DNA of 52,798 bases from Pseudonocardia sp. KRD291 (GTDB lineage Bacteria > Actinomycetota > Actinomycetes > Mycobacteriales > Pseudonocardiaceae), in NCBI RefSeq assembly GCF_019263595.1, contig NZ_JADQDD010000009.1, forward strand, positions 1 through 52,798, given 5' to 3'. Below are positions 4,137 through 41,435 of this stretch, one piece after another; position 1 is the stretch's first letter; each line of letters opens with the position of its first letter. A model generated the notes under the pieces. It was not told where the DNA came from. It saw nothing but the letters and a program-made list of their open reading frames with translations, and ran no database searches. The translations under genes and the position numbers were made by a program.

Positions 4137-4176
4137 CCCGTCCGCCCGGTCCATGGTCCCGGACCGGGCGGACGGG
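4137..4176 (+). terminator. Hairpin terminator after the LLM oxidoreductase gene
   Basis: A perfect 16-bp inverted repeat (CCCGTCCGCCCGGTCC and its complement) encloses the 8-base loop ATGGTCCC and begins 8 bases after the stop codon at 4128. There is no T-run, which is normal for GC-rich actinobacterial terminators. Confidence 0.75.
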
Positions 4177-4318
4177 GCCGTCCCCTGCCTTCGGACGGGA
4201 CCGCGCGCCTCCAGTAGTGGCACCGGGTGCCGAATCGCTAGTGTGCCGGGATCGAGGCCGACACACACTCCCGGGCGGAGCTCGCGGAGCGGGGTAGCAG
4301 AACTGCGAAGGGGCAGGC

Positions 4319-5536
4319 ATGGCGAGCACGAAGGACTGGTTCGAAACCGTCGCGGAGGCCCAGCGGCGGGCCAAGAAGCGCCTGCCGAAGTCGGTCTACT
4401 ACGCGCTGGTCGCCGGGGCCGAGCAGGGCATCACCCTGAGCGACAACGTGGGCGCGTTCGACGAGCTGGGGTTCCGCCCGCACATCGCGGACCTGCCCGC
4501 GGTGCGGGACCAGAAGACCACGGTGATGGGCCAGGAGATCGACTTCCCGGTCGTCATCTCGCCGACCGGCGTGCAGGCCGTGGACCCGGAGGGCGAGGTC
4601 GCGGTCGCGCGGGCGGCGGCGAGCTCGAACATCCAGAACCCGCTGAACCCGGAGCAGACGGTCTCCACGGCGATGGGGCTGTCCTCGTTCGCCTCGCGCT
4701 CCATCGAGGACGTGTGCGCGGTCAACGACAAGGTGTTCTTCCAGGTGTACTGGGCGGGCTCGCGCGAGGACATCCTGGCCCGCGCGATGCGCGCGAAGGC
4801 GGCCGGTGCGAAGGCGCTGATCGTCACGCTGGACTGGACGTTCGCCACCCGCCGGGACTGGGGCAGCCCGCCCATCCCGGAGAAGATGGACCTCAAGGCG
4901 ATGCTCCAGTTCGGCCCGGAGGCGATCGTCCGGCCGAAGTACCTGCTGGACTGGGTGAAGACCGGCAAGCTGCCCGACCTGACCACCCCGAACATGGCCT
5001 CGCCCGGACAGGACCCGCCGACGTTCTTCGGCGCCTACGGCGTGTGGTGGACCTCCCCGCTGCCGACCTGGGAGGACATCGCCTGGCTGCGCGAGCAGTG
5101 GGGCGGACCGTTCATGCTCAAGGGGATCACGCACCCGGACGACGCGCGCCGCGCCGTCGACGCCGGCGCCACCGCGATCTCGGTGTCCAACCACGGCGGC
5201 AACAACCTCGACGGCACCCCGGGCTCGATCCGCGCGCTGCCGGCGATCGCGGACGCGGTCGGCCACGAGATCGAGGTGCTGCAGGACGGCGGCATCCGCC
5301 GCGGGGCCGACGTGGTCAAGGCGCTGTCGCTGGGCGCCCGGGCCTGCATGATCGGCCGCGCCTACCTGTGGGGGATGGCCGCGCAGGGTGAGCGCGGGGT
5401 GACCAACGTGATCTCGATCCTCTACAAGGGGATCGACGAGGCACTGCTGGGCCTGGGCAAGAACTCCATCCACGAGCTCTCCCGGGACGACCTGATCATC
5501 CCGGAGAACTTCGCCCGGAACAGCGCCAAGATCTAG
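4319..5536 (+). CDS. mftD: MftD-like FMN-dependent alpha-hydroxyacid dehydrogenase-family protein
   Basis: A 405-residue protein of the LldD/glycolate-oxidase FMN family. It shows the pattern I associate with MftD, the pre-mycofactocin synthase once called LldD1: WFETVAEAQRRAKKRLPKSV at the N terminus, TTVMGQEIDFPVVISPTGVQ, VMGLSSFAS-type strand, PTWEDIAWLRE, GGPFMLKGI, catalytic-region SVSNHGGNNLDGTP, FMN phosphate site DGGIRRGADVVKAL and GRAYLWG. MftD oxidises the peptide-derived precursor of mycofactocin, a redox cofactor. No mftA, B, C, E or F gene is in the window, so it is either an orphan or a paralog acting on another substrate. An insertion, NIQNPLNPEQTVST (about 103-116), sits between two strands that abut in the family. 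AGGCAGGC-like sequence precedes the ATG weakly. Confidence 0.8.
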   Translation: MASTKDWFETVAEAQRRAKKRLPKSVYYALVAGAEQGITLSDNVGAFDELGFRPHIADLPAVRDQKTTVMGQEIDFPVVISPTGVQAVDPEGEVAVARAAASSNIQNPLNPEQTVSTAMGLSSFASRSIEDVCAVNDKVFFQVYWAGSREDILARAMRAKAAGAKALIVTLDWTFATRRDWGSPPIPEKMDLKAMLQFGPEAIVRPKYLLDWVKTGKLPDLTTPNMASPGQDPPTFFGAYGVWWTSPLPTWEDIAWLREQWGGPFMLKGITHPDDARRAVDAGATAISVSNHGGNNLDGTPGSIRALPAIADAVGHEIEVLQDGGIRRGADVVKALSLGARACMIGRAYLWGMAAQGERGVTNVISILYKGIDEALLGLGKNSIHELSRDDLIIPENFARNSAKI

Positions 5537-32615: not shown

Positions 32616-34037
32616 ATGGTGACCCTGACAGCGCAGGAAGAGGTGACCGCGTCCCCGAGCGTCGTCTTCGGGCTGTTCGGCGCCGGCACCGGCGCCGGGT
32701 GGATCTTCGATGCCCATTGCGACGACGTCGTCCCGGGCGCACCGGTCACTCTCCGAGTGCCGCTCGAACGATCCGACGGACGCGTCGAGCTCCTCGGTCG
32801 CATCGGATGTGTGGAGCAGAACAGACTGATCGAGATCGTCCACACGCAACCGTGGCAAGGACGAACAGTTCTCCGTTTCTCCGGCATCGGACCGAACCGC
32901 ACACAGGTCCGTCTGCAGGCAGAACTCGACGACCAGGGCCTGGCCTGGTTGATGCGCCGCCGTGGCCATCCGGTCGCCATCGAGCGCTCAGGAAACCCAC
33001 GCCTCGGCCTACTGACATCAAAATCGGGGCCGGGCAACCTGTTCGCAATGGCGTCGGACCACATGGCGACGCTGGCACTCGAGGAGGTCAACGCCGAGGG
33101 AGGTCTGCGGGGGCGGCCGGTCGAGCTTCAGGTCGGCGACGACCGGACTGATCCGGAAGAGGGAGCTGCTGAAGCGCGTCGGCTGATGGCAGAGGGCTGC
33201 CGGACGATCCTCGTCGCGACCACTTCGGCCACCTACGTAGCGGTGTCGCAACGCTTGGCCGACGACGAGGTCCTCCTCGTCCAGACCGTGATGAACGAGG
33301 GTGGCGACTCCGGCAGGCTGCGAGTTCAGCTGGGGGAGCGGCACGTCGACCAGATCCGCGGCGCCGCAGGACCCATGATGCGGGCAGCAGGCGGGCGGCG
33401 CTGGTTCCTGGCAGGGAACGACTACTGCTGGCCGCGCAGCACGAACGCCGTAGCCCGCGACGTTCTTCCGCCGGTCGGTGGGCAGATCGTGGGGGAGCGG
33501 TTGGCCTCGCTCGGTACGACCGACTTCGCATCGCTGATCGAGGCGATCGACCGCTCGAAGGCGGACATCACCCTGTCCACGTTCGTCGGCGCGGACGCGG
33601 CGGCCTTCCAGCGCCAACTCCACGAGTACGGACTGCACGATCGCTGCCTGACACTGGCGCCGGCGATGGATGAGTCGACGATCGCTCGAATCGGCGCTGC
33701 GGGTACCGCCGGCCTGCACACCGTCTCGGGCTACATCGAGTCCCTGGACAACGTCGGCAACACGGGGTTGCTCGAACGCTACCGCGAGCGGTTCGGCCGG
33801 TGGGCCCCGCCGTTGTCGACGCTGAGCGAGTCGGTGTTCGAGGCTGTCCACATCTGGTGGACGGCTGCGAGGCGGGCTCGCACGGACGAGCCGGCCGCCG
33901 TCGCGGCGGCCATGCACAACGGCAACTTCGAGCTACCACGTGGCACGGTCAGGCTCGACGGAGACGGCGACGTCCATCAGCAGCTCTACGTGGCCGAAGC
34001 GGTGGGCACGGATCTTCGTATGGTCGCCCGGTGCTAG
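32616..34037 (+). CDS. Fusion of SRPBCC-like domain and AmiC/amide-binding periplasmic-type protein; candidate nitrile/amide sensor
   Basis: A 473-residue protein with two domains. Residues 1-125 look like an SRPBCC/START ligand-binding or polyketide-cyclase fold: VTLTAQEEVTASPSVVFGLF, WIFDAHCDDVVPGAPVTLRV and FSGIGPNRTQVRLQAELDD. Residues about 130-473 form a type I periplasmic-binding fold of the AmiC/short-chain amide kind: LFAMASDHMATLALEEVNAE, GGLRGRPVELQVGDDRTDPE, RRWFLAGNDYCWPRS, LSTFVGADAAAFQRQL and ESVFEAVHIWWTAARRA. There is no signal peptide, so it should act in the cytoplasm, as AmiC and the NhlC-type regulators of nitrile hydratase do. It converges on the nitrile hydratase operon and shares a CTAG stop with it. 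Its base composition is visibly lower in GC than its neighbours. Start ATG 32616 follows AGGGAG. Confidence 0.85.
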   Translation: MVTLTAQEEVTASPSVVFGLFGAGTGAGWIFDAHCDDVVPGAPVTLRVPLERSDGRVELLGRIGCVEQNRLIEIVHTQPWQGRTVLRFSGIGPNRTQVRLQAELDDQGLAWLMRRRGHPVAIERSGNPRLGLLTSKSGPGNLFAMASDHMATLALEEVNAEGGLRGRPVELQVGDDRTDPEEGAAEARRLMAEGCRTILVATTSATYVAVSQRLADDEVLLVQTVMNEGGDSGRLRVQLGERHVDQIRGAAGPMMRAAGGRRWFLAGNDYCWPRSTNAVARDVLPPVGGQIVGERLASLGTTDFASLIEAIDRSKADITLSTFVGADAAAFQRQLHEYGLHDRCLTLAPAMDESTIARIGAAGTAGLHTVSGYIESLDNVGNTGLLERYRERFGRWAPPLSTLSESVFEAVHIWWTAARRARTDEPAAVAAAMHNGNFELPRGTVRLDGDGDVHQQLYVAEAVGTDLRMVARC

Positions 34038-34540
34038 GTGCCGAGCACCGCCGGTGACACCGCGACCGGCTCACGCCGTGGTCGGTGGTGGTCGGCGTTG
34101 CGCGGGGTGGCGAGCACCTCGCTGGTGCGGTCCTCGAGCGCGACCGGGTCGGACAGCGCGCCGTTGGAGGCGAGCACGGTCTCCAGCGCGTTGAGCCAGT
34201 GCTCGTAGTAGTTCCACGGCTCGCCGCCGGAGCCGTCCTCCCACTGCCGGATCGAATCGATCAGCGAGAGCTGGAACTCGCTCCACCCGTAGTGGCCCTC
34301 GTGGTACGCGGCGACGGCCATCGCGAACGCGCGCAGCTCCCACGGCTCGTCGAAGCCCTTGTCCGCCTGCGGCATGTCGCAGAGCAGCGTCTGCACCCGA
34401 CGACGCGCGTCCCCGAGCTCGGTGCCGTCCTGCCGGTAGCCGGTCCGGCCCTGTCCCACCTCGGTGGCGTCGAGGTCCTCGTAGGGTTCCCCGTCGGCGA
34501 ACGGGAGGTGCCCGTGGCCGTGCCCGTGGTCGGCCGCCAT
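34034..34540 (-). CDS. Nitrile hydratase accessory (activator/cobalt-insertion) protein
   Basis: A 168-residue protein of the P14K/NhlE family, related to the N-terminal part of the nitrile hydratase beta subunit: FDEPWELRAFAMAVAAYHEG, WSEFQLSLIDSIRQWE and WNYYEHWLNALETVLASNG. In characterised systems this partner carries cobalt and the oxidised cysteines into the alpha subunit by subunit exchange. The N terminus [14 protein letters not shown] has four alternating histidines (5, 7, 9, 11), a possible metal-delivery site. ATG at 34540 overlaps the alpha-subunit stop (TGATG), so translation is coupled. The stop at 34034 is the reverse reading of the CTAG that ends the convergent fusion gene. 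Confidence 0.93.
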   Translation of the reverse strand: MAADHGHGHGHLPFADGEPYEDLDATEVGQGRTGYRQDGTELGDARRRVQTLLCDMPQADKGFDEPWELRAFAMAVAAYHEGHYGWSEFQLSLIDSIRQWEDGSGGEPWNYYEHWLNALETVLASNGALSDPVALEDRTSEVLATPRNADHHRPRREPVAVSPAVLGT

Positions 34541-35160
34541 CAGGGCTGCTCCGGGTCGCCGACGCCGATCATCGACTCGCGGGTGACCAGCGCGGCGAGC
34601 TGCTCTTCGGACCAGCCGTCGGTGCCGGCCGGGCGCTGCGGCAGCACCCAGTAGCGCATCTCCGAGCTGGTGTCCCAGACGCGGATCTCGACCGAGTCCG
34701 GCACGTCGAGGCCGAACTCGTCGCGCAGCACCGTGCGCGGCTCGCGCACCATCCGTGCGCGGTAGGCGGGCTCCTTGTACCAGTTCGGCGGCAGGCCCAG
34801 GACCGGCCACGGGTAGCAGGAGCACAGCGTGCAGACGATGGCGTGGCGGACCTGGTCGGTGTTCTCGACGGCGACCATGTCCTCACCCTGCAGGCCGCTG
34901 ATCCCGAGCTCGGCGCAGGCGGTGGAGGCGTTGTCCAGCAGGCGCTCCCTGAACTGCGGGTCGGTCCAGGCATTGGCGACGACCTTCGCGCCGAGCTGGG
35001 GGCCGACCTCGTTCTCGTAGATCTCGGCGAACCGGTCCACCGCGGCGGTGGTCATCAGGCCCTTCTCGATCATCAGGGACTCGATCGCCTTCACCCGCGC
35101 GGCGATCTGCGCCTGATGGTCGGCGGCCGGAACACTCTGCGCCGTGTTCGGTGCATTCAT
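34540..35160 (-). CDS. nthA: Nitrile hydratase alpha subunit, cobalt type
   Basis: A 206-residue alpha subunit of nitrile hydratase, which hydrates nitriles to amides. The metal claw [10 protein letters not shown] is at 109-118, with Cys110, Cys113, Ser114 and Cys115 as ligands; Cys113 and Cys115 are expected to be oxidised to sulfinic and sulfenic acid. Thr in CTLCSC marks the cobalt type; iron enzymes have Ser there. Other blocks: [56 protein letters not shown] and [23 protein letters not shown] at 35160 lies 24 bases after the beta stop. The beta-alpha order is the one usual for cobalt-type operons. Confidence 0.97.
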
Positions 35161-35184
35161 GATGTGCGTTTCCTTCGTTCGTGG

Positions 35185-35877
35185 TCAGGAAGCGGCCGGG
35201 ACGATGTAGGGCTCCCAGACGTCGAAGGTGCTCGTCCCGTTCGGTTCGGCCGCCTCGGCGCCCCAGAGGTCCTCGGCCGTGAACTGCACGGTGTAGACGT
35301 GCTCGGACGTCTCGTCGAGGCTGTTGCCGGCCGTGTCCGGGTAGACCATCTCGCCGTGCGCCATGACGATGACGCCGGTCTTGCCGCGCACGTAGCCCGC
35401 CTTGCGGGTGTGCCCGCGCGGCGCGTCGGAGACGACGGTGACCCGGTCGCCCACCGAGAACGTCGCCGCCTTGCCGGTGTCGCGGGAGGCGGGCGCCCCG
35501 GCCGGGACGACGGCCTCGATGAACGCGACCAGCTCGCCGTCCGGGTCCTTGTCCTCGGGCAGCGGAGCGTCCGGGTTCTCCAGGTAGTACCGCGTGCGCT
35601 CATCGACCTCCGCGAGATCCCAGTGACCGGTGCGGATGCCGTGGTGCTGGACCGAGTGCAGCCAGTGCTCGTAGTAGGGCGAGGTCAGGTACTCGACCGG
35701 GTCCATCTGCTCCATGCCGTAGCGGAACGCGTCGACGCCGAACATGCCGGCGCGGAACGCCATCGGGAACAGCGTGTGGGCGTGCTTCTCCCACTCCGCC
35801 TTCCAGACCGGCTCCTCCGGCGGGGGTGCCACGGCCCCGAGGCCGTCTCGCCCGCCGAGATCGTGGATGCCGTTCAC
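35185..35877 (-). CDS. nthB: Nitrile hydratase beta subunit
   Basis: A 230-residue beta subunit. N-terminal MNGIHDLGGRDGLGAV is the family signature; WKAEWEKHAHTLFPMAFRAG, YYEHWLHSVQHHGIRTG and the SH3-like C-terminal domain FSVGDRVTVVSDAPRGHTRK, GVIVMAHGEMVYPDT, VYTVQFTAEDLWG complete it. With the alpha subunit it forms the heterodimer whose interface holds the active site. GTG at 35877 is preceded by GGGAGG 6 bases upstream. It overlaps the amidase stop as GTGA, so the amidase and hydratase are translated in a coupled way. Confidence 0.96.
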   Translation of the reverse strand: MNGIHDLGGRDGLGAVAPPPEEPVWKAEWEKHAHTLFPMAFRAGMFGVDAFRYGMEQMDPVEYLTSPYYEHWLHSVQHHGIRTGHWDLAEVDERTRYYLENPDAPLPEDKDPDGELVAFIEAVVPAGAPASRDTGKAATFSVGDRVTVVSDAPRGHTRKAGYVRGKTGVIVMAHGEMVYPDTAGNSLDETSEHVYTVQFTAEDLWGAEAAEPNGTSTFDVWEPYIVPAAS

Positions 35878-37430
35878 GCGTGTCCTCCCGATGTGGACGC
35901 GGCGAGGGCCGGCGGTGCGGGGAACCCACCGACCGCCTGCTCGTAGGCGTGCGCCGCGCGGAGCACGGTCGCGTCGTCGAACTGCCGCCCGACCAGCATC
36001 AGTCCGGCCGGAAGCCCGTTGACCAGGTCGGCCGGGACCGAACAGGCCGGGTGGCCGGTGACGTTGAAGGGGGCCGTGTTCCCGATCATCGACAGGGCCG
36101 TCGGCAGATAGGTTTCCAGTGGCGCGTCGTAACCGACGATCTCCTGCGCCGTGAACGGCAGGGTCGGCATGACGAGGATGTCGTACGCGGAGAGCGCGTC
36201 GTCGTAGGCCTTGCGCAGCTCGAAGGCCAGGTTGCGGGCCATCGCGTAGTACTTGCCGCCGCCGAGCTGGAACGTGTACGTGCCGGACAGCCCGACCAGC
36301 TTGACCGTCTTGGACAGCTCGGCGCCGCGGGTGATCCGCTGGGCCGCGTAGTGCGCGATCAGCTCCGGGTCGTAGAGACCCTGCGAGTTCATGCCGTAGC
36401 CGTTTCCCGCGATCATCTGGAACGCGGCGCCCTCGGTGGCGATCACGTTCCAGAGTGCCATGGCGTCGGTGTGCCACGGGATCGAGACGTCGTCGACGGT
36501 GGCACCGGCTCCGCGAAGCGCGTCGATCGCGGCGCGCACCGACTGGTCCACGCCGGCCTCGCTCTCCGGACGCCCGAACCCCTCGGCCACGACGCCGACG
36601 CGCAGTCCTTCGGCTCCTCGACCGAGCGCAGTCGCGTAACCCACCGGTTCGATCGAGGTGGGCTGACGCGGGTCCTGGCCGTCCACGCCGGCGAGTACCT
36701 CGAGCATCGTCGCGGCGTCGGCGACGGTGCGGGTCATCGGTCCGAGGTGGTCGATCGTCTGCTCGATCGGGAACGCGCCGGTGTAGGGAACCAGGCCGTG
36801 CGTGGGCTTGTGCCCGACGCCGCCGGAGAACGACGCCGGGATCCGCACCGATCCGCCCTGGTCGCCACCGAGCGCGAGATCGACGGCACCGGTCACGACG
36901 AGCGCGACGCTGCCGCTCGACGAGCCACCGGAGTTGCGCGTCGGGTCCCACGGGTTGCGCACCGGCGCCGGCCGCGACGTGAAGCTGCCGCCGGAGAAGC
37001 ACAGGTCCTCGCACACGGACTTACCGGCGATCGTCGCACCCGCTTCGAGCAGCCGGGTGACCACGGTGGCGTCGCGGCGCGGGACGAAACCCTCGACCGT
37101 GGCGGAGCCGTTGGCCATCGGTACGCCCGCGACACTGACGTTGTCCTTGATCACCACGGTCTTACCGGCCAGCGGACCGTCGGCGGCGCCGGAGATCGAC
37201 GTCGTCACCGCCCAGGCGCCGAGCGGGTTGTCCACGGGCGCTGACCATGGCCTGTCCGGGGTGGCCGGAGCAGTCGCCTCGTACAGCTCCTCGACGCGTT
37301 CCGAGGCGGCCAGCGTCCCGGCGACCGCGGGCCCGTACTCCTCGATCTCGGTGGGCGTGAGCCCGAAACGGAAACTCTCGTTCAGCGCCGTCAGGCGCGC
37401 CGAGTCTGGGGGAGGGATCGCCACGGGCAC
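35874..37430 (-). CDS. Amidase (amidase-signature family) for nitrile-derived amides
   Basis: A 518-residue amidase-signature enzyme that hydrolyses the amide made by nitrile hydratase to acid and ammonia. The Ser-cisSer-Lys triad is visible: Lys95 in VVIKDN, the cis-Ser in NSGGSSSGSV at about 170, and nucleophile Ser194 in GGDQGGSVRIPAS. The N-terminal alpha-helical extension (1-75) is like that of the Rhodococcus enantioselective amidases associated with nitrile hydratases. GTG at 37430 follows GAGGAG by 6 bases. It is the first gene of the amidase-beta-alpha-accessory operon and has its own promoter-like sequence upstream. Confidence 0.96.
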   Translation of the reverse strand: MPVAIPPPDSARLTALNESFRFGLTPTEIEEYGPAVAGTLAASERVEELYEATAPATPDRPWSAPVDNPLGAWAVTTSISGAADGPLAGKTVVIKDNVSVAGVPMANGSATVEGFVPRRDATVVTRLLEAGATIAGKSVCEDLCFSGGSFTSRPAPVRNPWDPTRNSGGSSSGSVALVVTGAVDLALGGDQGGSVRIPASFSGGVGHKPTHGLVPYTGAFPIEQTIDHLGPMTRTVADAATMLEVLAGVDGQDPRQPTSIEPVGYATALGRGAEGLRVGVVAEGFGRPESEAGVDQSVRAAIDALRGAGATVDDVSIPWHTDAMALWNVIATEGAAFQMIAGNGYGMNSQGLYDPELIAHYAAQRITRGAELSKTVKLVGLSGTYTFQLGGGKYYAMARNLAFELRKAYDDALSAYDILVMPTLPFTAQEIVGYDAPLETYLPTALSMIGNTAPFNVTGHPACSVPADLVNGLPAGLMLVGRQFDDATVLRAAHAYEQAVGGFPAPPALAASTSGGHA

Positions 37431-37460
37431 TCCTCGGACTAGCTGGGCGGACAGGAGTGA

Positions 37461-37489
37461 AAGCTAGAAGGCCCGGTCGGTCATGTCAA
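37461..37489 (-). promoter_or_regulatory. Candidate promoter of the amidase/nitrile hydratase operon
   Basis: On the minus strand, a perfect TTGACA (-35, plus-strand 37484-37489) is followed after 17 bases by TAGCTT (-10, 37461-37466), ahead of the amidase start at 37430. Confidence 0.55.
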
Positions 37490-37494
37490 TGCGC

Positions 37495-37511
37495 CGTGAC
37501 GCGTTGTCACG
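37495..37511. promoter_or_regulatory. Inverted repeat next to the nitrile operon -35 element
   Basis: CGTGAC-GCGTT-GTCACG is a perfect 6-bp inverted repeat with a 5-base spacer, centred about 17 bases upstream of the -35 element. It could bind the ArsR-type protein or an activator. Confidence 0.45.
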
Positions 37512-37601
37512 AGATCGTCTGCGGAACCCGGTCGAGCCGGCTCAGTCTCGCGGCAGCCTGCCGTCCGCCCGAAGGCACGTCCGGACGGCGGGCCGGTTCG
37601 G

Positions 37602-37970
37602 CTATCCGGTCTTCGCGACGTGTCCCTCGCCCCGCGTCTCGACCGCGGACCGCGCCTCGTCCAACGACTCGCGGAACAGTCCGTGCAGCAGGCGTATGAC
37701 GTCGGCCGCCGCACCGGAGGGGTCGATCGCGTAGAAGCGGAATCGGCCGGCTCTGCGCTCGGTCACGAGACCGGCGATCCGCAGTACCCGCAGGTGGGTG
37801 GACACGGCGGTGCGCCCGACGGTGTGGATCTGCTCGGCGAGCGCTCCCGCGCTGAGCTCATCGTGCTCGGCGAGCACGCTGAGGATCTCACGGCGCACGG
37901 GATCGGCGAGGGCGTCGAACGCCAGGTCGGCGCCGAAGCTCGTGCCCGACCTGTCACGCCCTGCCGACAT
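37602..37970 (-). CDS. ArsR-family winged-helix regulator of the nitrile locus
   Basis: A 122-residue transcription factor. The winged helix-turn-helix spans about 12-95: FDALADPVRREILSVLAEHD, LSAGALAEQIHTVGRTAVST, HLRVLRIAGLVTERRAGRFR, FYAIDPSGAAADVIRLL. It contains no cysteine, so it lacks the CxC metal site of classical ArsR sensors and may respond to a protein partner or an organic ligand. ATG at 37970 lacks a clear ribosome binding site. It lies on the same strand between cbiO and the amidase gene, where cobalt nitrile hydratase loci often keep a repressor such as NhlD. Regulation of both the cobalt importer and the hydratase operon is an inference. Confidence 0.9.
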   Translation of the reverse strand: MSAGRDRSGTSFGADLAFDALADPVRREILSVLAEHDELSAGALAEQIHTVGRTAVSTHLRVLRIAGLVTERRAGRFRFYAIDPSGAAADVIRLLHGLFRESLDEARSAVETRGEGHVAKTG

Positions 37971-37978
37971 AAGCCCAC

Positions 37979-38000
37979 GATAGCCCAACCGGGCCCTATC
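37979..38000. promoter_or_regulatory. Weak inverted repeat upstream of the ArsR gene
   Basis: GATAG and CTATC arms 12 bases apart lie 9 bases before the ArsR start, where autoregulation would act. The arms are only 5 bp, so chance occurrence is quite possible. Confidence 0.25.
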
Positions 38001-38123
38001 GGTGAGGTGACCCGGCACCCCCCACGTGGGTCGGCGTGGCTCGAACGCACCGGGCGCTCGGCGGCGGCTCGGGCGGGCCTGCGGTACCGGCGCGACGGCG
38101 ACCGTGGCCCGCGGAGCCGGCGC

Positions 38124-39005
38124 TCACGGCGGGGAAACCTGGTCGGGTGCGAGCCCGAGGGCCGCCTGAGGGCGGAGGGTTCGGCGCAGGTCCAGAAGGT
38201 CCTGCAGCTCGGCCGCGGTGCGCGGCACGGCGTCCGAACCCGCCTCGCGCAGCAGGCTGCGGACCCCCGGCCCCCACGCCGGACCGAGCCGCGAGGCCGC
38301 CAGCAGGTCGGCGTCCGCGAGCACGTCCTCGGCGGCCGCGAGGTGCACCCGCCCGGCACCGACGACGGCGACCTCGTCGGCCCAGCGGTAGGCGAGATCG
38401 ACGTCGTGGGTGGAGAGCACGATCGTCGTGCCCGCGTCGTGCAGCACGGCGACCGTCTCCATCAGGGCCTCGACGCCCGCGGGGTCGAGGCCGGCGGTCG
38501 GCTCGTCGAGCACCAGCAGCCGCGGCCGCATCGCCACCGCCCCGGCGATCGCGACGCGCTTGCGTTGCCCGAACGACAACAGGTGGGTGGGTTTCGCGGC
38601 CAGGTCGGTGATCTCGAGTGCGGCCAGCGCGGCGGACACCCGCTCGCGCACCTGCTGGGCGTCGAGTCCCAGGTTGAGCGGACCGAACGACACGTCCTGG
38701 GTGACGTCCGCGGCGAACAGCTGGTCGTCGGGGTCCTGCAGGACGAGCTGCACCTGTTCGCGCAGGCGGGCCAGGCCCCGGCGGCTGCGCCGCAGCGGGT
38801 GTCCGTCCAGGAGGACCTCGCCGGCCGTCGGCTCGACCAGCCCGACGAGCAGGCGGAACAGCGTGGTCTTACCGCCGCCGTTCGGGCCGAGCACCGCGAT
38901 CCGGCGACCGGCGTGCACGGCGATGTCGGCGCCGTCGAGCACCGGGTGCCCACGCTCGTAGGCGAAGCCGAGCCCGCGTGCCTGCAGGACCGGGACCCCG
39001 CTCAC
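38124..39005 (-). CDS. cbiO: Cobalt ECF transporter ATPase
   Basis: A 293-residue ABC ATPase that powers cobalt uptake with CbiQ. Walker A is LGPNGGGKTTLFRLL at about 36-50, the Q-loop is QLVLQDPDDQLFAADV, the signature LLSFGQRKRVAIAGAV and Walker B PRLLVLDEPTAGLDP, with switch His in LSTHDVDLA. The FGQRKR form of the signature is typical of CbiO-type subunits. A C-terminal extension of about 70 residues has no recognised motif. GTG at 39005 overlaps the cbiQ stop (GTGA), giving coupled translation. Confidence 0.95.
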   Translation of the reverse strand: MSGVPVLQARGLGFAYERGHPVLDGADIAVHAGRRIAVLGPNGGGKTTLFRLLVGLVEPTAGEVLLDGHPLRRSRRGLARLREQVQLVLQDPDDQLFAADVTQDVSFGPLNLGLDAQQVRERVSAALAALEITDLAAKPTHLLSFGQRKRVAIAGAVAMRPRLLVLDEPTAGLDPAGVEALMETVAVLHDAGTTIVLSTHDVDLAYRWADEVAVVGAGRVHLAAAEDVLADADLLAASRLGPAWGPGVRSLLREAGSDAVPRTAAELQDLLDLRRTLRPQAALGLAPDQVSPP

Positions 39006-39745
39006 AGCACGCTCCTCAGCTCGAGCACCACCGCGGTCACCGCGACCAGCAGGGCGGCCGTCGCCGCGACGAACGGCCGTGACACCGGACGGGACACGAC
39101 CTGCACCCGCAACTGCCCGTCGTAACCCCGCGACGCCAGCCCCTGCTCGAGACGACGCGCCCGGTCGAACGCCCGCAGGAACACCGACGCGCCCTGCCCG
39201 GCCAGGGACCGGTACGTCGTGCGCCAGGTGCGGAACCCGAGGCGCAACGCCTGTGCCTCCCGCACCACCCGCAGCGACTCCAGCAGCAGGAACAGCAACC
39301 GGTAGATCAGGCTCGCGATCTCGATGACGGCCGCCGGGACACCCACCCGCTGCAGCCGCGGCAGCAACTCGGCCAGCGGCGTGGTCGCCGCGAACAGCAG
39401 CAGGCACAGCAGGGCCGCGACCGCCCGCGCGGTCAGCTCGGCGGCCGGGACCAGTCCGCCCGGGTTCCAGGCCGGCCACGGCGTCCCGCCGACCGTCACC
39501 AGCAACGGGGCGGCGCCGACGAGCACGAACCCGAGCGGCACCCGGGCCGCCCGCCACACCACGCGCCCGGCGACGCCGGCCGGTCCGAGCAGCAGCCCCA
39601 GCGCGACCGGCGCGCAGACCGCCGCGCCCGGCCACGGGGGCAGGGCGACGGCGAGCACGAGCAGGCCGAGCGAGAGGAACGCCTTCTCCCCGGGATGGCG
39701 CGCGCGCCAGCGGTTCGTGTACGCGGCGACGTCCAGCGGCAGCAT
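39002..39745 (-). CDS. cbiQ: Cobalt ECF transporter transmembrane subunit
   Basis: A 247-residue T-component (CbiQ/EcfT) with about six helices. The coupling-helix motifs contacting the ATPase are visible: ALRLGFRTWRTTYRSLAG and RARRLEQGLASRGYDG (the A-R-G type motif). N-terminal MLPLDVAAYTNRWRARHPGE has the AYTNRWR block of CbiQ proteins. ATG at 39745; it begins 10 bases after cbiN stops. It links the cobalt-binding CbiMN unit to CbiO. Confidence 0.93.
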   Translation of the reverse strand: MLPLDVAAYTNRWRARHPGEKAFLSLGLLVLAVALPPWPGAAVCAPVALGLLLGPAGVAGRVVWRAARVPLGFVLVGAAPLLVTVGGTPWPAWNPGGLVPAAELTARAVAALLCLLLFAATTPLAELLPRLQRVGVPAAVIEIASLIYRLLFLLLESLRVVREAQALRLGFRTWRTTYRSLAGQGASVFLRAFDRARRLEQGLASRGYDGQLRVQVVSRPVSRPFVAATAALLVAVTAVVLELRSVL

Positions 39746-39754
39746 CTGTCTCGA

Positions 39755-40099
39755 TCAGTCGTCGGCGGTCTCGGGCCCGACGCCGTCCGCGCTCCGACCG
39801 GCCTCCGCAGGGCGGTCGGCGCCCAGGCGCCGCTTCGTGCGCACCACGCCGAAGTAGTAGCCGACCACGCCGGCGCCGAGCGCGGCCTGCAGGGCGAACA
39901 GGCCGGACTCGATCTCCCCGGACGGGGGCTCGTAGAGCGGTGCGAACCACGGCTCGTAGTCCGGGTGCGACTCGGTGATCGCCTCCTCGGCCTGCCCGTC
40001 CGAGCCGGCGAACTCGCCGTCGACGAACACCACCGGGAACGCCACGAGGACCACGACGGCCACCAGGAGCAGCCAGTTCAGCAGCGTCGAACGCGTCAT
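39755..40099 (-). CDS. cbiN: Cobalt transport auxiliary subunit
   Basis: A 114-residue two-helix protein: [20 protein letters not shown] at the N terminus, an extracytoplasmic loop with [20 protein letters not shown] and [20 protein letters not shown], and a second helix [13 protein letters not shown]. The loop is the CbiN signature and helps load Co(II) onto CbiM. Presence of CbiN rather than NikL or NikN supports cobalt over nickel. ATG at 40099 overlaps the cbiM stop (ATGA). Confidence 0.95.
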
Positions 40100-40785
40100 G
40101 CCGTGACCTCCGTCGGCTCGGACGGGCGCTTGAGCAGCCCCAGACGTTCCAGCTCGGCCGGGCTGACCCGCACCAGCAACCGCACCACGAGCACGGTCAG
40201 CAGCCCTTCGCTGACCGCCAGCGGGATCTGGGTCACCGCGAAGATCGACCCGAACTTCAGCACCGAGCCGAGCACGCCGGACGTCGCGTCCGGGAACGCG
40301 AGCGCCAGCTGCGCGCTGGTCACGCAGTACGTCGCCAGGTCGCCGAGCGCGGCGGCGAAGAACACCCCGAGCCCGAGCCCGCCGCCGACCGAGCGGACCA
40401 GCCGGTAGACCCCGTACGCGACCCACGGCCCGACGACCGCCATCGAGAACGCGTTCGCCCCGAGCGTGGTGAGCCCGCCGTGGGCCAGCAACGTGGCCTG
40501 GAAGAACAGGACGATCGTGCCCAGCAGGGCCATCACGGGTGGTCGGAACAGGACGGCCCCGAGACCGGTCCCGGTCGGGTGCGAGCACGACCCGGTGACC
40601 GACGGGATCTTCAGGGCGGACAGCACGAACGTGAACGCGCCCGCCGCACCGAGCAGCAGCTTGGACTCCGGGTTGTCCCGGACCTGCCGCACGACCGCCC
40701 GCGCCCCGTGCACGACGAACGGGGCCGCCACGACCGTCCAGGCCGCCGCGTGAAGCGGCGGAAGATAGCCCTCCGCGATGTGCAC
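40096..40785 (-). CDS. cbiM: Cobalt ECF transporter substrate-binding subunit
   Basis: A 229-residue integral membrane S-component. The GTG at 40785 is chosen because it gives [10 protein letters not shown]: in CbiM/NikM the second residue must be His, since the N-terminal amine and His2 ligate the metal. Longer in-frame starts would bury it. Other blocks are [31 protein letters not shown] with the metal-binding His, [20 protein letters not shown] and [18 protein letters not shown]. It heads cbiMNQO, apparently one operon. No cobalamin riboswitch is seen upstream, so control seems to be by protein, matching a role in supplying the nitrile hydratase. Confidence 0.95.
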
Positions 40786-40816: not shown

Positions 40817-40846
40817 AGCATAGGTTCGACCGAGCTGAATACTCAA
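40817..40846 (-). promoter_or_regulatory. Candidate promoter of cbiMNQO
   Basis: On the minus strand TTGAGT (-35, plus-strand 40841-40846) and TATGCT (-10, 40817-40822) are separated by 18 bases, about 30 bases upstream of the cbiM GTG. Confidence 0.45.
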
Positions 40847-40862
40847 CACATGAACTGCTCAT
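40836..40862. promoter_or_regulatory. Two small dyads overlapping the cbiM -35 element
   Basis: TGAATACTCA (40836-40845) and ATGAACTGCTCAT (40850-40862) are two adjacent dyads with TGA/TCA arms in an AT-richer patch, one covering the -35 element. ArsR/SmtB operators often contain TGAA/TTCA arms, so the nearby ArsR protein is a candidate binder. Confidence 0.4.
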
Positions 40863-40913
40863 CAGGTGGTGACGTGGTGAAGCCCGTCGGCCGCGTCGCC
40901 GGCGCGAATCGGC

Positions 40914-41435
40914 TCAGCCGACGACGACGGGCAGGTCGGCGTCGGCGGTCCACTCCGAGAGCGAGCCGTCGTAGACGGCGACCTCGGTGCCGGTCACGAG
41001 GTAGGCGGCGAAGGCGGGCAGGGTGGCCGCGATCCCGCCGCCGCAGTAGGTGACGGCGCGCTCGGTGTCTGTGAGCCCGGACCCGCGGAGATTGTCCGCG
41101 AGTGCGTCCCGGTCCAGGAACCGCCCGGTCGTCCGATCGACGCTGTCGCCGGTCTCGACGGTGAGCCCGGCCTCCCGCCAGGCCTGCAGCCCGCCGTCGA
41201 GCACGGAGACCCGGTCGTGGCCGAAGACCCGCAGCAACCACCAGACACGGGTCGCCCACGCCGCGAACCGCGCGCCGGGGAGGTGCTCGGCGAGGAACTC
41301 GTCACGGTGCGGGTGGACGGTGTAGGGGACCCCGTCGGACGTGGTGCTCAGGTGGGTTGACGCATCGAGGACCACGACGTCGTCTTTCAGAGCGGCCAGG
41401 TCGTCGGCGGAGAGCAGCGACGGTATGGAGGGCAC
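40914..41435 (-). CDS. Shortened rhodanese-like sulfurtransferase
   Basis: A 173-residue protein resembling two-domain thiosulfate/3-mercaptopyruvate sulfurtransferases, usually about 280 residues. Present are the N-terminal VVVLDASTHLSTT, EFLAEHLPGARFA, then ATRVWWLLRVFGHDRVSVLD, GLQAWREAGLTVETG and the C-terminal active-site loop AVTYCGGGIAATLPAF with catalytic Cys, then VAVYDGSLSEW. Two blocks appear missing in frame: about 50 residues between GARFA and WATR near residue 58, and about 60 residues before the active-site loop. The reading frame stays open, so it may be a decayed but translated gene or a compact natural form. GTG at 41435. Confidence 0.75.
   Translation of the reverse strand: MPSIPSLLSADDLAALKDDVVVLDASTHLSTTSDGVPYTVHPHRDEFLAEHLPGARFAAWATRVWWLLRVFGHDRVSVLDGGLQAWREAGLTVETGDSVDRTTGRFLDRDALADNLRGSGLTDTERAVTYCGGGIAATLPAFAAYLVTGTEVAVYDGSLSEWTADADLPVVVG

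Follow-up and report, generated by a model that had tools for sequence, protein, structure and literature searches.

Pseudonocardia sp. KRD291 carries the four genes of a cobalt energy-coupling factor (ECF) importer, cbiMNQO, directly beside the genes of a cobalt-type nitrile hydratase (NHase), and our analysis suggests that these are two complete, separately regulated modules lying head to tail, of which the importer would fill a shared cobalt pool (a reading that we hold at a probability of about 0.58). The locus is on contig C515 of a draft genome (G000) of 6.57 Mb in 525 contigs; this stretch of 52,798 nucleotides was analyzed over its whole length and is called the window below. The reading is carried by the identities of the genes, by a separate conserved promoter element in front of each module and by orthologs of the two modules that are unlinked in relatives. 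A functional link between importer and hydratase is plausible, and most likely the importer's function is to supply the hydratase with cobalt from a shared pool; that the importer is dedicated to the hydratase is unlikely.

Gene organization of the locus

Along the minus strand, a rhodanese-like gene is followed by cbiM, cbiN, cbiQ, cbiO, arsR, the amidase gene, nthB, nthA and the activator gene. The AmiC-like sensor gene on the plus strand (32616-34037), which was missing from the gene list of an earlier prediction made on this DNA (the original prediction), converges with the activator gene. The importer and hydratase genes were judged against curated NCBIfam cut-offs, and all of them scored above. 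The promoter elements were scored with position weight matrices (PWMs) from which the window was held out. The features are as follows.

40841..40872, minus strand: predicted cbiM operator/promoter element, TGA..GTTCA half-sites beside a TTGAGT -35-like box; held-out PWM 22.2 bits
40096..40785, minus strand: cbiM, substrate-binding membrane subunit of the cobalt ECF importer; TIGR00123 276.9 bits versus cut-off 184.15; PF01891
39755..40099, minus strand: cbiN, second part of the S unit; TIGR01165 113.7 versus 104.85; PF02553
39002..39745, minus strand: cbiQ, transmembrane coupling subunit; TIGR02454 147.8 versus 111.8
38124..39005, minus strand: cbiO, ATPase; TIGR01166 262.7 versus 211.8
37602..37970, minus strand: ArsR/SmtB-family regulator of the nitrile hydratase module; NF033788 71.9 versus 55; no Cys
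37482..37505, minus strand: predicted amidase/NHase operon promoter element, AACGCGTCA-N6-ATTGACATG; held-out PWM 30.2-31.5 bits
35874..37430, minus strand: amidase; PF01425; NF005565 717.4 versus 545
35185..35877, minus strand: nthB, nitrile hydratase beta; TIGR03888 239 versus 152.2
34540..35160, minus strand: nthA, cobalt-type nitrile hydratase alpha; TIGR01323 302.6 versus 249.85; VCTLCSCY motif
34034..34540, minus strand: nitrile hydratase activator, P14K/NhlE type; TIGR03889 73.2 versus 46; His-rich N-terminus DHGHGHGH
32616..34037, plus strand: AmiC-like ligand sensor; Peripla_BP_6, PF13458 2.2e-71; homologs in relatives' NHase loci

The original prediction had placed cbiMNQO, an ArsR regulator, the amidase, nthB, nthA with its CTLCSC motif and the activator on one strand, and the family cut-offs confirmed every one of these genes; its end coordinate, 40785, is the GTG start codon of cbiM, whose product has the N-terminus M/VHIAEG. 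All four importer subunits are encoded in one cassette, and the small subunit is CbiN (PF02553, TIGR01165), not NikN/PDGLE. The window's alpha subunit contains VCTLCSCY, and a CTLCSCY-type motif marks the cobalt-type hydratase according to one report (PMC2667541). By this motif and the alpha, beta and activator cut-offs, the window enzyme is assigned to the cobalt-type nitrile hydratases, which supports the predicted adjacency of a cobalt-type ECF importer and a cobalt-type NHase.

Among the activators compared, the His-rich N-terminus occurs only in the window and its close NHase relatives, namely G278 (L018/L086/L167), G294 (L165) and the Actinomycetospora locus L117, and most other Pseudonocardia activators begin near RQDATELGDARRRV. 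This N-terminus could hold cobalt. Ahead of its Peripla_BP_6 domain, the AmiC-like sensor carries about 125 unassigned N-terminal residues with, by eye, no evident signal peptide. Upstream of cbiM, the rhodanese-type sulfurtransferase gene (40914-41435) lacks two internal in-frame stretches compared with the full-length Pseudonocardia parietis homolog (L104) and looks decayed. The sulfurtransferase gene of P. parietis (G291; L104, about 4155-5000) is intact and divergent from the AmiC-like sensor gene of the NHase cluster, and its product is the closest to the window's among the genus matches listed (75% over residues 99-173).

The two modules meet between cbiO and arsR, both on the minus strand and 153 bp apart. 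The juxtaposition is known from a single draft genome, and a fragmented one (525 contigs), which might point to an assembly artefact at this junction. Against this, we found no repeat of at least 40 bases at the junction in comparisons within the window, where one direct repeat and two inverted pairs (73-78% alike) lie elsewhere; the genes and both promoter elements are intact on either side, and the genome has a completeness of 96.5 and a contamination of 1.69. An artefact is therefore very improbable.

Two separate promoter elements

The cbiM motif, a PWM derived from 29 upstream regions of relatives' cbiM, has the consensus TCAACAATTGAAGAACTGTTCAGGCTTGCAGG, with half-sites adjoining a -35-like box; these half-sites presumably resemble those bound by ArsR/SmtB proteins. 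Its best match in the 52.8 kb lies upstream of cbiM (40872-40841, minus strand; 22.2 bits), the runner-up being the same site on the opposite strand (13.3 bits) and the next place elsewhere reaching 9.2, and 200 Markov sequences used as controls averaged 4.8 and reached at most 15.3. The window's site is outscored by 26 of the 29 training sites (the other three range from 12.7 to 18.9) and is thus a recognizable but weaker member of the group. The decayed cbiM copy of G315, which was also held out, scored 39.4.

The amidase motif was derived in the same way from the regions upstream of the amidase in 14 NHase loci and has the consensus AACGCGCCAGTACCCATTGACATG. Its best match in the window, at 37505-37482 on the minus strand and about 50 bp before the amidase gene, scored 31.5 bits (30.2 with another background), and the mean and maximum of 200 Markov controls were 11.8 and 23.3. 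The cbiM motif was not found at the NHase promoters (1.0 at the amidase, -17.6 at arsR), nor was the amidase motif found at cbiM (6.0) or at the window's arsR (-8.0). Because the elements are separate and neither stands at the other gene set, we may conclude that two regulatory units have been juxtaposed. The co-regulation of importer and hydratase that the original prediction implied is not supported, given these separate elements and an intervening ArsR that is part of the NHase module.

The amidase motif recurs in reversed orientation near the arsR start in five relatives' loci (L086, L176, L177, L181 and L183), an arrangement that would fit autoregulation by that ArsR. No convincing motif emerged from 15 sequences upstream of arsR, a simple promoter scan returned no strict sigma-70 site, and the one terminator-like site lies inside cbiM, the same number as in shuffles.

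The hydratase module is conserved as a unit

The surroundings of nthA were compared in 20 Pseudonocardia stretches picked from the high-identity end of the nthA matches listed. Fifteen of them carry arsR, the AmiC-like sensor, amidase, nthB, nthA and activator genes in that order, and the remaining 5 have a partial set of these six. The sensor homologs thus sit between arsR and the amidase in relatives' NHase loci; the window's sensor gene is downstream and convergent, as on the Rhodococcus plasmid pPE111. Because their orthologs accompany NHase and not cbiMNQO in relatives, arsR and the sensor gene are members of the hydratase module. The window's ArsR was also considered as the regulator of the importer and was rejected as first choice, both for this company of its orthologs and for the absence of the cbiM element at the arsR and amidase promoters.

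Adding 80 stretches from GTDB genomes gave a sample of 100 NHase stretches (six loci are in both sets, and 36 stretches are shorter than 20 kb). With the window's proteins as queries, no CbiM, CbiN or CbiQ was found in these 100 stretches, and three divergent CbiM queries found no CbiM there either. Three of them (L097, L163 and L184) contain NiCoT-like motifs; a fourth match to the pattern, in L182, looks like a chance frame. Linkage to a cobalt permease, whether ECF or NiCoT, is therefore uncommon in this sample. No NiCoT motif was found in the six frames of the window.

Two further hydratase loci may be recorded here. The window's own genome has a second, more distant set (G000:C194:3271-3960, L042) whose nthA is 55% identical to the window's and which includes beta and activator-like genes. 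In G321, the hydratase locus contains a NicO/NiCoT permease gene followed by an ArsR gene (L184:16344-17899), and an element resembling the cbiM operator (15.7 bits) lies about 65-100 bp upstream of the permease gene.

The importer cassette lies apart from the hydratase in relatives

Of 62 Pseudonocardia genomes, 29 (counting the one that holds the window) encode a CbiM with at least 74% identity to the window's, and the relatives' proteins (74-88% identical) have the same operator type upstream of their genes. We compared 29 cbiM loci from 28 other Pseudonocardia genomes with up to 10 kb per side (5 of the stretches are shorter than 20 kb, two of them only 5 and 7 kb). None of the 29 contained a match to nthA, nthB, the activator, the window-type arsR or the window-type amidase. 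Thus, the gene order proposed for comparison in the original prediction is not kept in these relatives, where the cassette is unlinked from NHase in 29/29 loci; linkage does occur on plasmids of two other genera.

The importer surroundings vary by lineage. A different ArsR (DLCVSDL type) is encoded directly upstream of the cassette in 14 of the 29 loci, and a DUF3099-cluster gene lies downstream of cbiO in 15; both clusters were identified by Pfam on one member each. In the window's genome, a DLCVSDL-type ArsR gene and a DUF3099-like gene are together on contig C211, where there are no cbi genes and no cbiM element, and among the matches listed this ArsR is also retained in genomes without the window-type cbiM. 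The DLCVSDL-type ArsR was considered as the importer's sole cognate regulator, for which it stays a candidate. A cbiMNQO remnant in G315 (L207, G315:C347), with its operator retained, lies between a DLCVSDL-type ArsR gene and a DUF3099-like gene, and the cassette there seems to be decaying in place.

In the CbiM tree, the window's protein falls outside the Rhodococcus plasmid clade (100/99) and among the Pseudonocardia rows; its exact place is weakly supported, as no strongly supported set contains it and the tree carries a long-branch warning. The Rhodococcus clade itself also stands among Pseudonocardia rows, with weak support.

Some Pseudonocardia cbi loci have amide-related neighbors of their own. 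A similar sensor and a MarR regulator are encoded near the cassette in L048, L054, L061, L062 and L066, with an FmdA amidase identified in L048, and a tubulin-like protein with a His-rich start is encoded near amide-use genes and cbiMNQO at L072:14902-16407. Annotated tubulin-like proteins are likewise found near amide-use genes and cbiMNQO on two Rhodococcus plasmids (L190 and L191).

Cobalamin genes and the use of the importer

The original prediction had assigned the importer to the hydratase because the locus showed no cobalamin riboswitch and no cob genes. The absence itself was borne out: no cobalamin riboswitch (RF00174) was found in the window, whose sole Rfam match is a tRNA, and Pfam scans of 41 of the 48 called genes showed no cob gene (4 of the 41 gave no family). 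The relatives likewise show no cob gene or riboswitch beside the cassette, as judged from clusters of genes, a selection of Pfam scans and the coordinates of riboswitches, without a full cob scan. Riboswitch control of cbiM was considered and rejected, there being none in the window and, in a comparison by eye, no listed riboswitch of the genus beside a listed cbiM.

The conclusion drawn from this absence, a dedicated importer, is not supported, since cobalamin genes are present elsewhere and the genome (G000) has a single CbiN match. Three riboswitches are found on contigs C468 and C141 alongside cobN and genes for precorrin-8X methylmutase, a corrin methylase, a CobB/CobQ-type amidase and corrinoid adenosyltransferase. 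The second CbiM of the genome is truncated by a contig end and is about 36% identical over 145 residues; beside a CbiM of that second type, the relative G276 has PDGLE in place of CbiN, which we take to be a nickel-type arrangement. Reserving the sole cobalt-type ECF importer for one enzyme would be unlikely in a genome that apparently makes B12.

The proposal that cbiMNQO is dedicated to the nitrile hydratase, is co-regulated with it and replaces NhlF draws on the common strand, the short cbiO-arsR spacing, the locally missing riboswitch and cob genes, and the plasmid pairings described below, including an operon-like nthB-nthA-activator-amidase-ferredoxin-cbiMNQO order in Parageobacillus. 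We consider it quite improbable, in view of the separate conserved promoter elements, a cassette that lies apart from NHase in 28 relatives, a genome that has cobN and further cob genes but a single importer of the CbiN type, and three relatives that carry the importer without an nthA of 65% or more.

Co-occurrence and chance adjacency

Within the genus, importer and close nthA occur together in 26 genomes, the importer alone in 3, nthA alone in 12 and neither in 21 (thresholds CbiM at least 74% and nthA at least 65%; Fisher p = 1.9e-5, without correction for shared ancestry and with thresholds set after the data had been seen). These counts were compiled by hand among the matches listed, with G320 counted from nthA fragments and the decayed cbiM of G315 taken as absent. 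The importer-only genomes (G277, G305 and G307) each contain a more distant alpha-family gene of 51-57% identity; thus the arrangement named in the original prediction as speaking against it, a cassette conserved without nthAB and grouped with cob genes, was not strictly observed.

Adjacency is another matter. With about three NHase genes in about 7 Mb, a random coincidence within +-10 kb is expected in about 1% of genomes, or about 0.25 times over the 29 genomes, so that one such case is unsurprising by itself. Adjacency beyond chance is thus not upheld on the window alone, and gene presence beyond chance is upheld. Both genes share one listed contig in 16 other Pseudonocardia genomes, and even the closest of these pairs is separated by 92 kb (compiled by hand). 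In an even order-wide sample of 397 genomes, 82 have CbiN, and 34 of the 80 of these searched have an NHase alpha; none lies near CbiN, the closest same-contig pair being about 486 kb apart (read by eye).

These distances, the expected number of coincidences and the separation by more than 100 kb on 4 of 12 plasmid records with both genes all agree with the view that cbiMNQO serves general cobalt nutrition, mainly for B12, and that its position beside the hydratase is coincidental and functionally meaningless. We regard this as unlikely, because of the co-occurrence within the genus and because two other genera have plasmids on which the genes are closely linked, with hydratases of other types and a CbiM clade that excludes the window. 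Taken together, the genus co-occurrence and the close plasmid linkage disfavor pure chance.

Pairings on plasmids

Among plasmid records, 179 match nthA (40 of them listed), 37 match CbiM and 12 are in both listings. Importer and NHase are within 10 kb on 8 of these 12, of which seven are from Rhodococcus (strain M8 among them) and one is from Parageobacillus. The distance between cbiMNQO and the hydratase is 4.5-9.1 kb in the seven Rhodococcus records among those listed and 3-9 kb over some Rhodococcus plasmids and the Parageobacillus plasmid. The seven probably represent one event, as four sampled linked records and two other Rhodococcus plasmids form one CbiM clade (100/99) from which the window is excluded. 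On pNit and a Rhodococcus qingshengii plasmid, cbiMNQO stands beside an aliphatic amidase gene, a sensor-like substrate-binding-domain gene and a MarR gene. The plasmid linkage of cbiMNQO to NHase in two other genera makes it reasonable that the importer supplies NHase with cobalt.

Several observations, besides the limits of the p value given above, weigh against the shared-pool reading. The genomes with the closest nthA among the matches listed (85-87%; G319, G294 and G278) are without the importer, so the hydratase does not need it. Importer and NHase are more than 100 kb apart on the 4 remaining plasmid records, the derivative plasmid M8-33 lists nthA without any match to CbiM, and on a Rhizobium plasmid cbiMNQO is accompanied by an amidase gene while no NHase gene is listed within 7 kb of it. 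The regulators may also be connected by a relay, or transcription may read through from cbiO into arsR and the amidase gene.

On balance, we favor two separate modules and a shared cobalt pool. The nitrile module is of the low-molecular-weight type known from Rhodococcus and has a predicted promoter of its own ahead of the amidase gene, and the importer is the Pseudonocardia CbiMNQO with its own ArsR/SmtB-like operator. CbiMNQO would bring an ion, presumably cobalt, into the cell's pool, from which the activator would take it to metallate the hydratase and on which cobalamin synthesis would also draw. The importer may be regulated by metal and the nitrile module by amide. Their adjacency would reflect a local rearrangement in this lineage and no conserved operon.

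More broadly, and tentatively, ECF cobalt importers may have been recruited to nitrile loci at least three times independently (in this Pseudonocardia, on Rhodococcus plasmids and on a Parageobacillus plasmid) as a convergent route beside NhlF, with importer and hydratase co-inherited in Pseudonocardia even when unlinked. Cobalt supply matters for the nitrile hydratases that make acrylamide and nicotinamide. If ECF importers have been placed repeatedly beside hydratases, the four-gene cassette becomes a candidate component for improving production strains, one of which, strain M8, has such a cassette already. Through the two conserved promoter elements, it can be tested directly whether cobalt import depends on nitrile use or only on metal need.

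Comparison with known systems

A pairing of cbiMNQO with nitrile hydratase was not found described in the titles and abstract openings of the open literature searched. CbiMNQO, NhlF and CblA, an ArsR-family cobalt-dependent regulator of Rhodococcus rhodochrous hydratase, are described in one paper (PMC7689651), cobalt transport genes within the pNit nitrile cluster are mentioned in another (PMC6941271), and a third (PMC7953298) is on the strain M8 genome. The ArsR gene beside the M8 hydratase may encode CblA.

Among the closest known systems is the low-molecular-weight locus of R. rhodochrous on pNit (ATCC BAA-870), in which ArsR, AmiC-like sensor, nthB, nthA, activator and amidase genes are likewise clustered. 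It has a NiCoT permease gene (NhlF type) between activator and amidase, whereas the window instead has cbiMNQO upstream and its sensor gene downstream and convergent. The nhl locus of R. rhodochrous J1 is likewise of this low-molecular-weight type. The statement in the original prediction that Rhodococcus loci use NhlF is right for pNit and incomplete for the genus, in which seven of the listed plasmid records have cbiMNQO near the other hydratase, presumably the high-molecular-weight type. On these plasmids (e.g., M8 p1), cbiMNQO lies near nthBA and the activator gene, with a substrate-binding-domain (sensor) gene and an ArsR gene close by. They differ from the window in that M8 p1 has a MarR regulator, cbiMNQO divergent from the sensor gene and no amidase listed (its gene table is incomplete), and in that M8-type plasmids have an nthA only 57-58% identical to the window's and a separate CbiM clade without the Pseudonocardia operator (by inspection).

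On the Parageobacillus thermoglucosidasius plasmid (NZ_CP063415.1), nthB-nthA-activator-amidase and cbiMNQO are on one strand as in the window, but in this Firmicute cbiMNQO is downstream, a ferredoxin gene lies between and the sensor-regulator is of the sigma-54 type. The Pseudonocardia cbiMNQO loci elsewhere have the same four genes and operator type and differ by their distance from the hydratase genes. The family assignments are ordinary. A hydratase with a cobalt permease is a known theme, of which this pairing is a variant that is rare but recurs.

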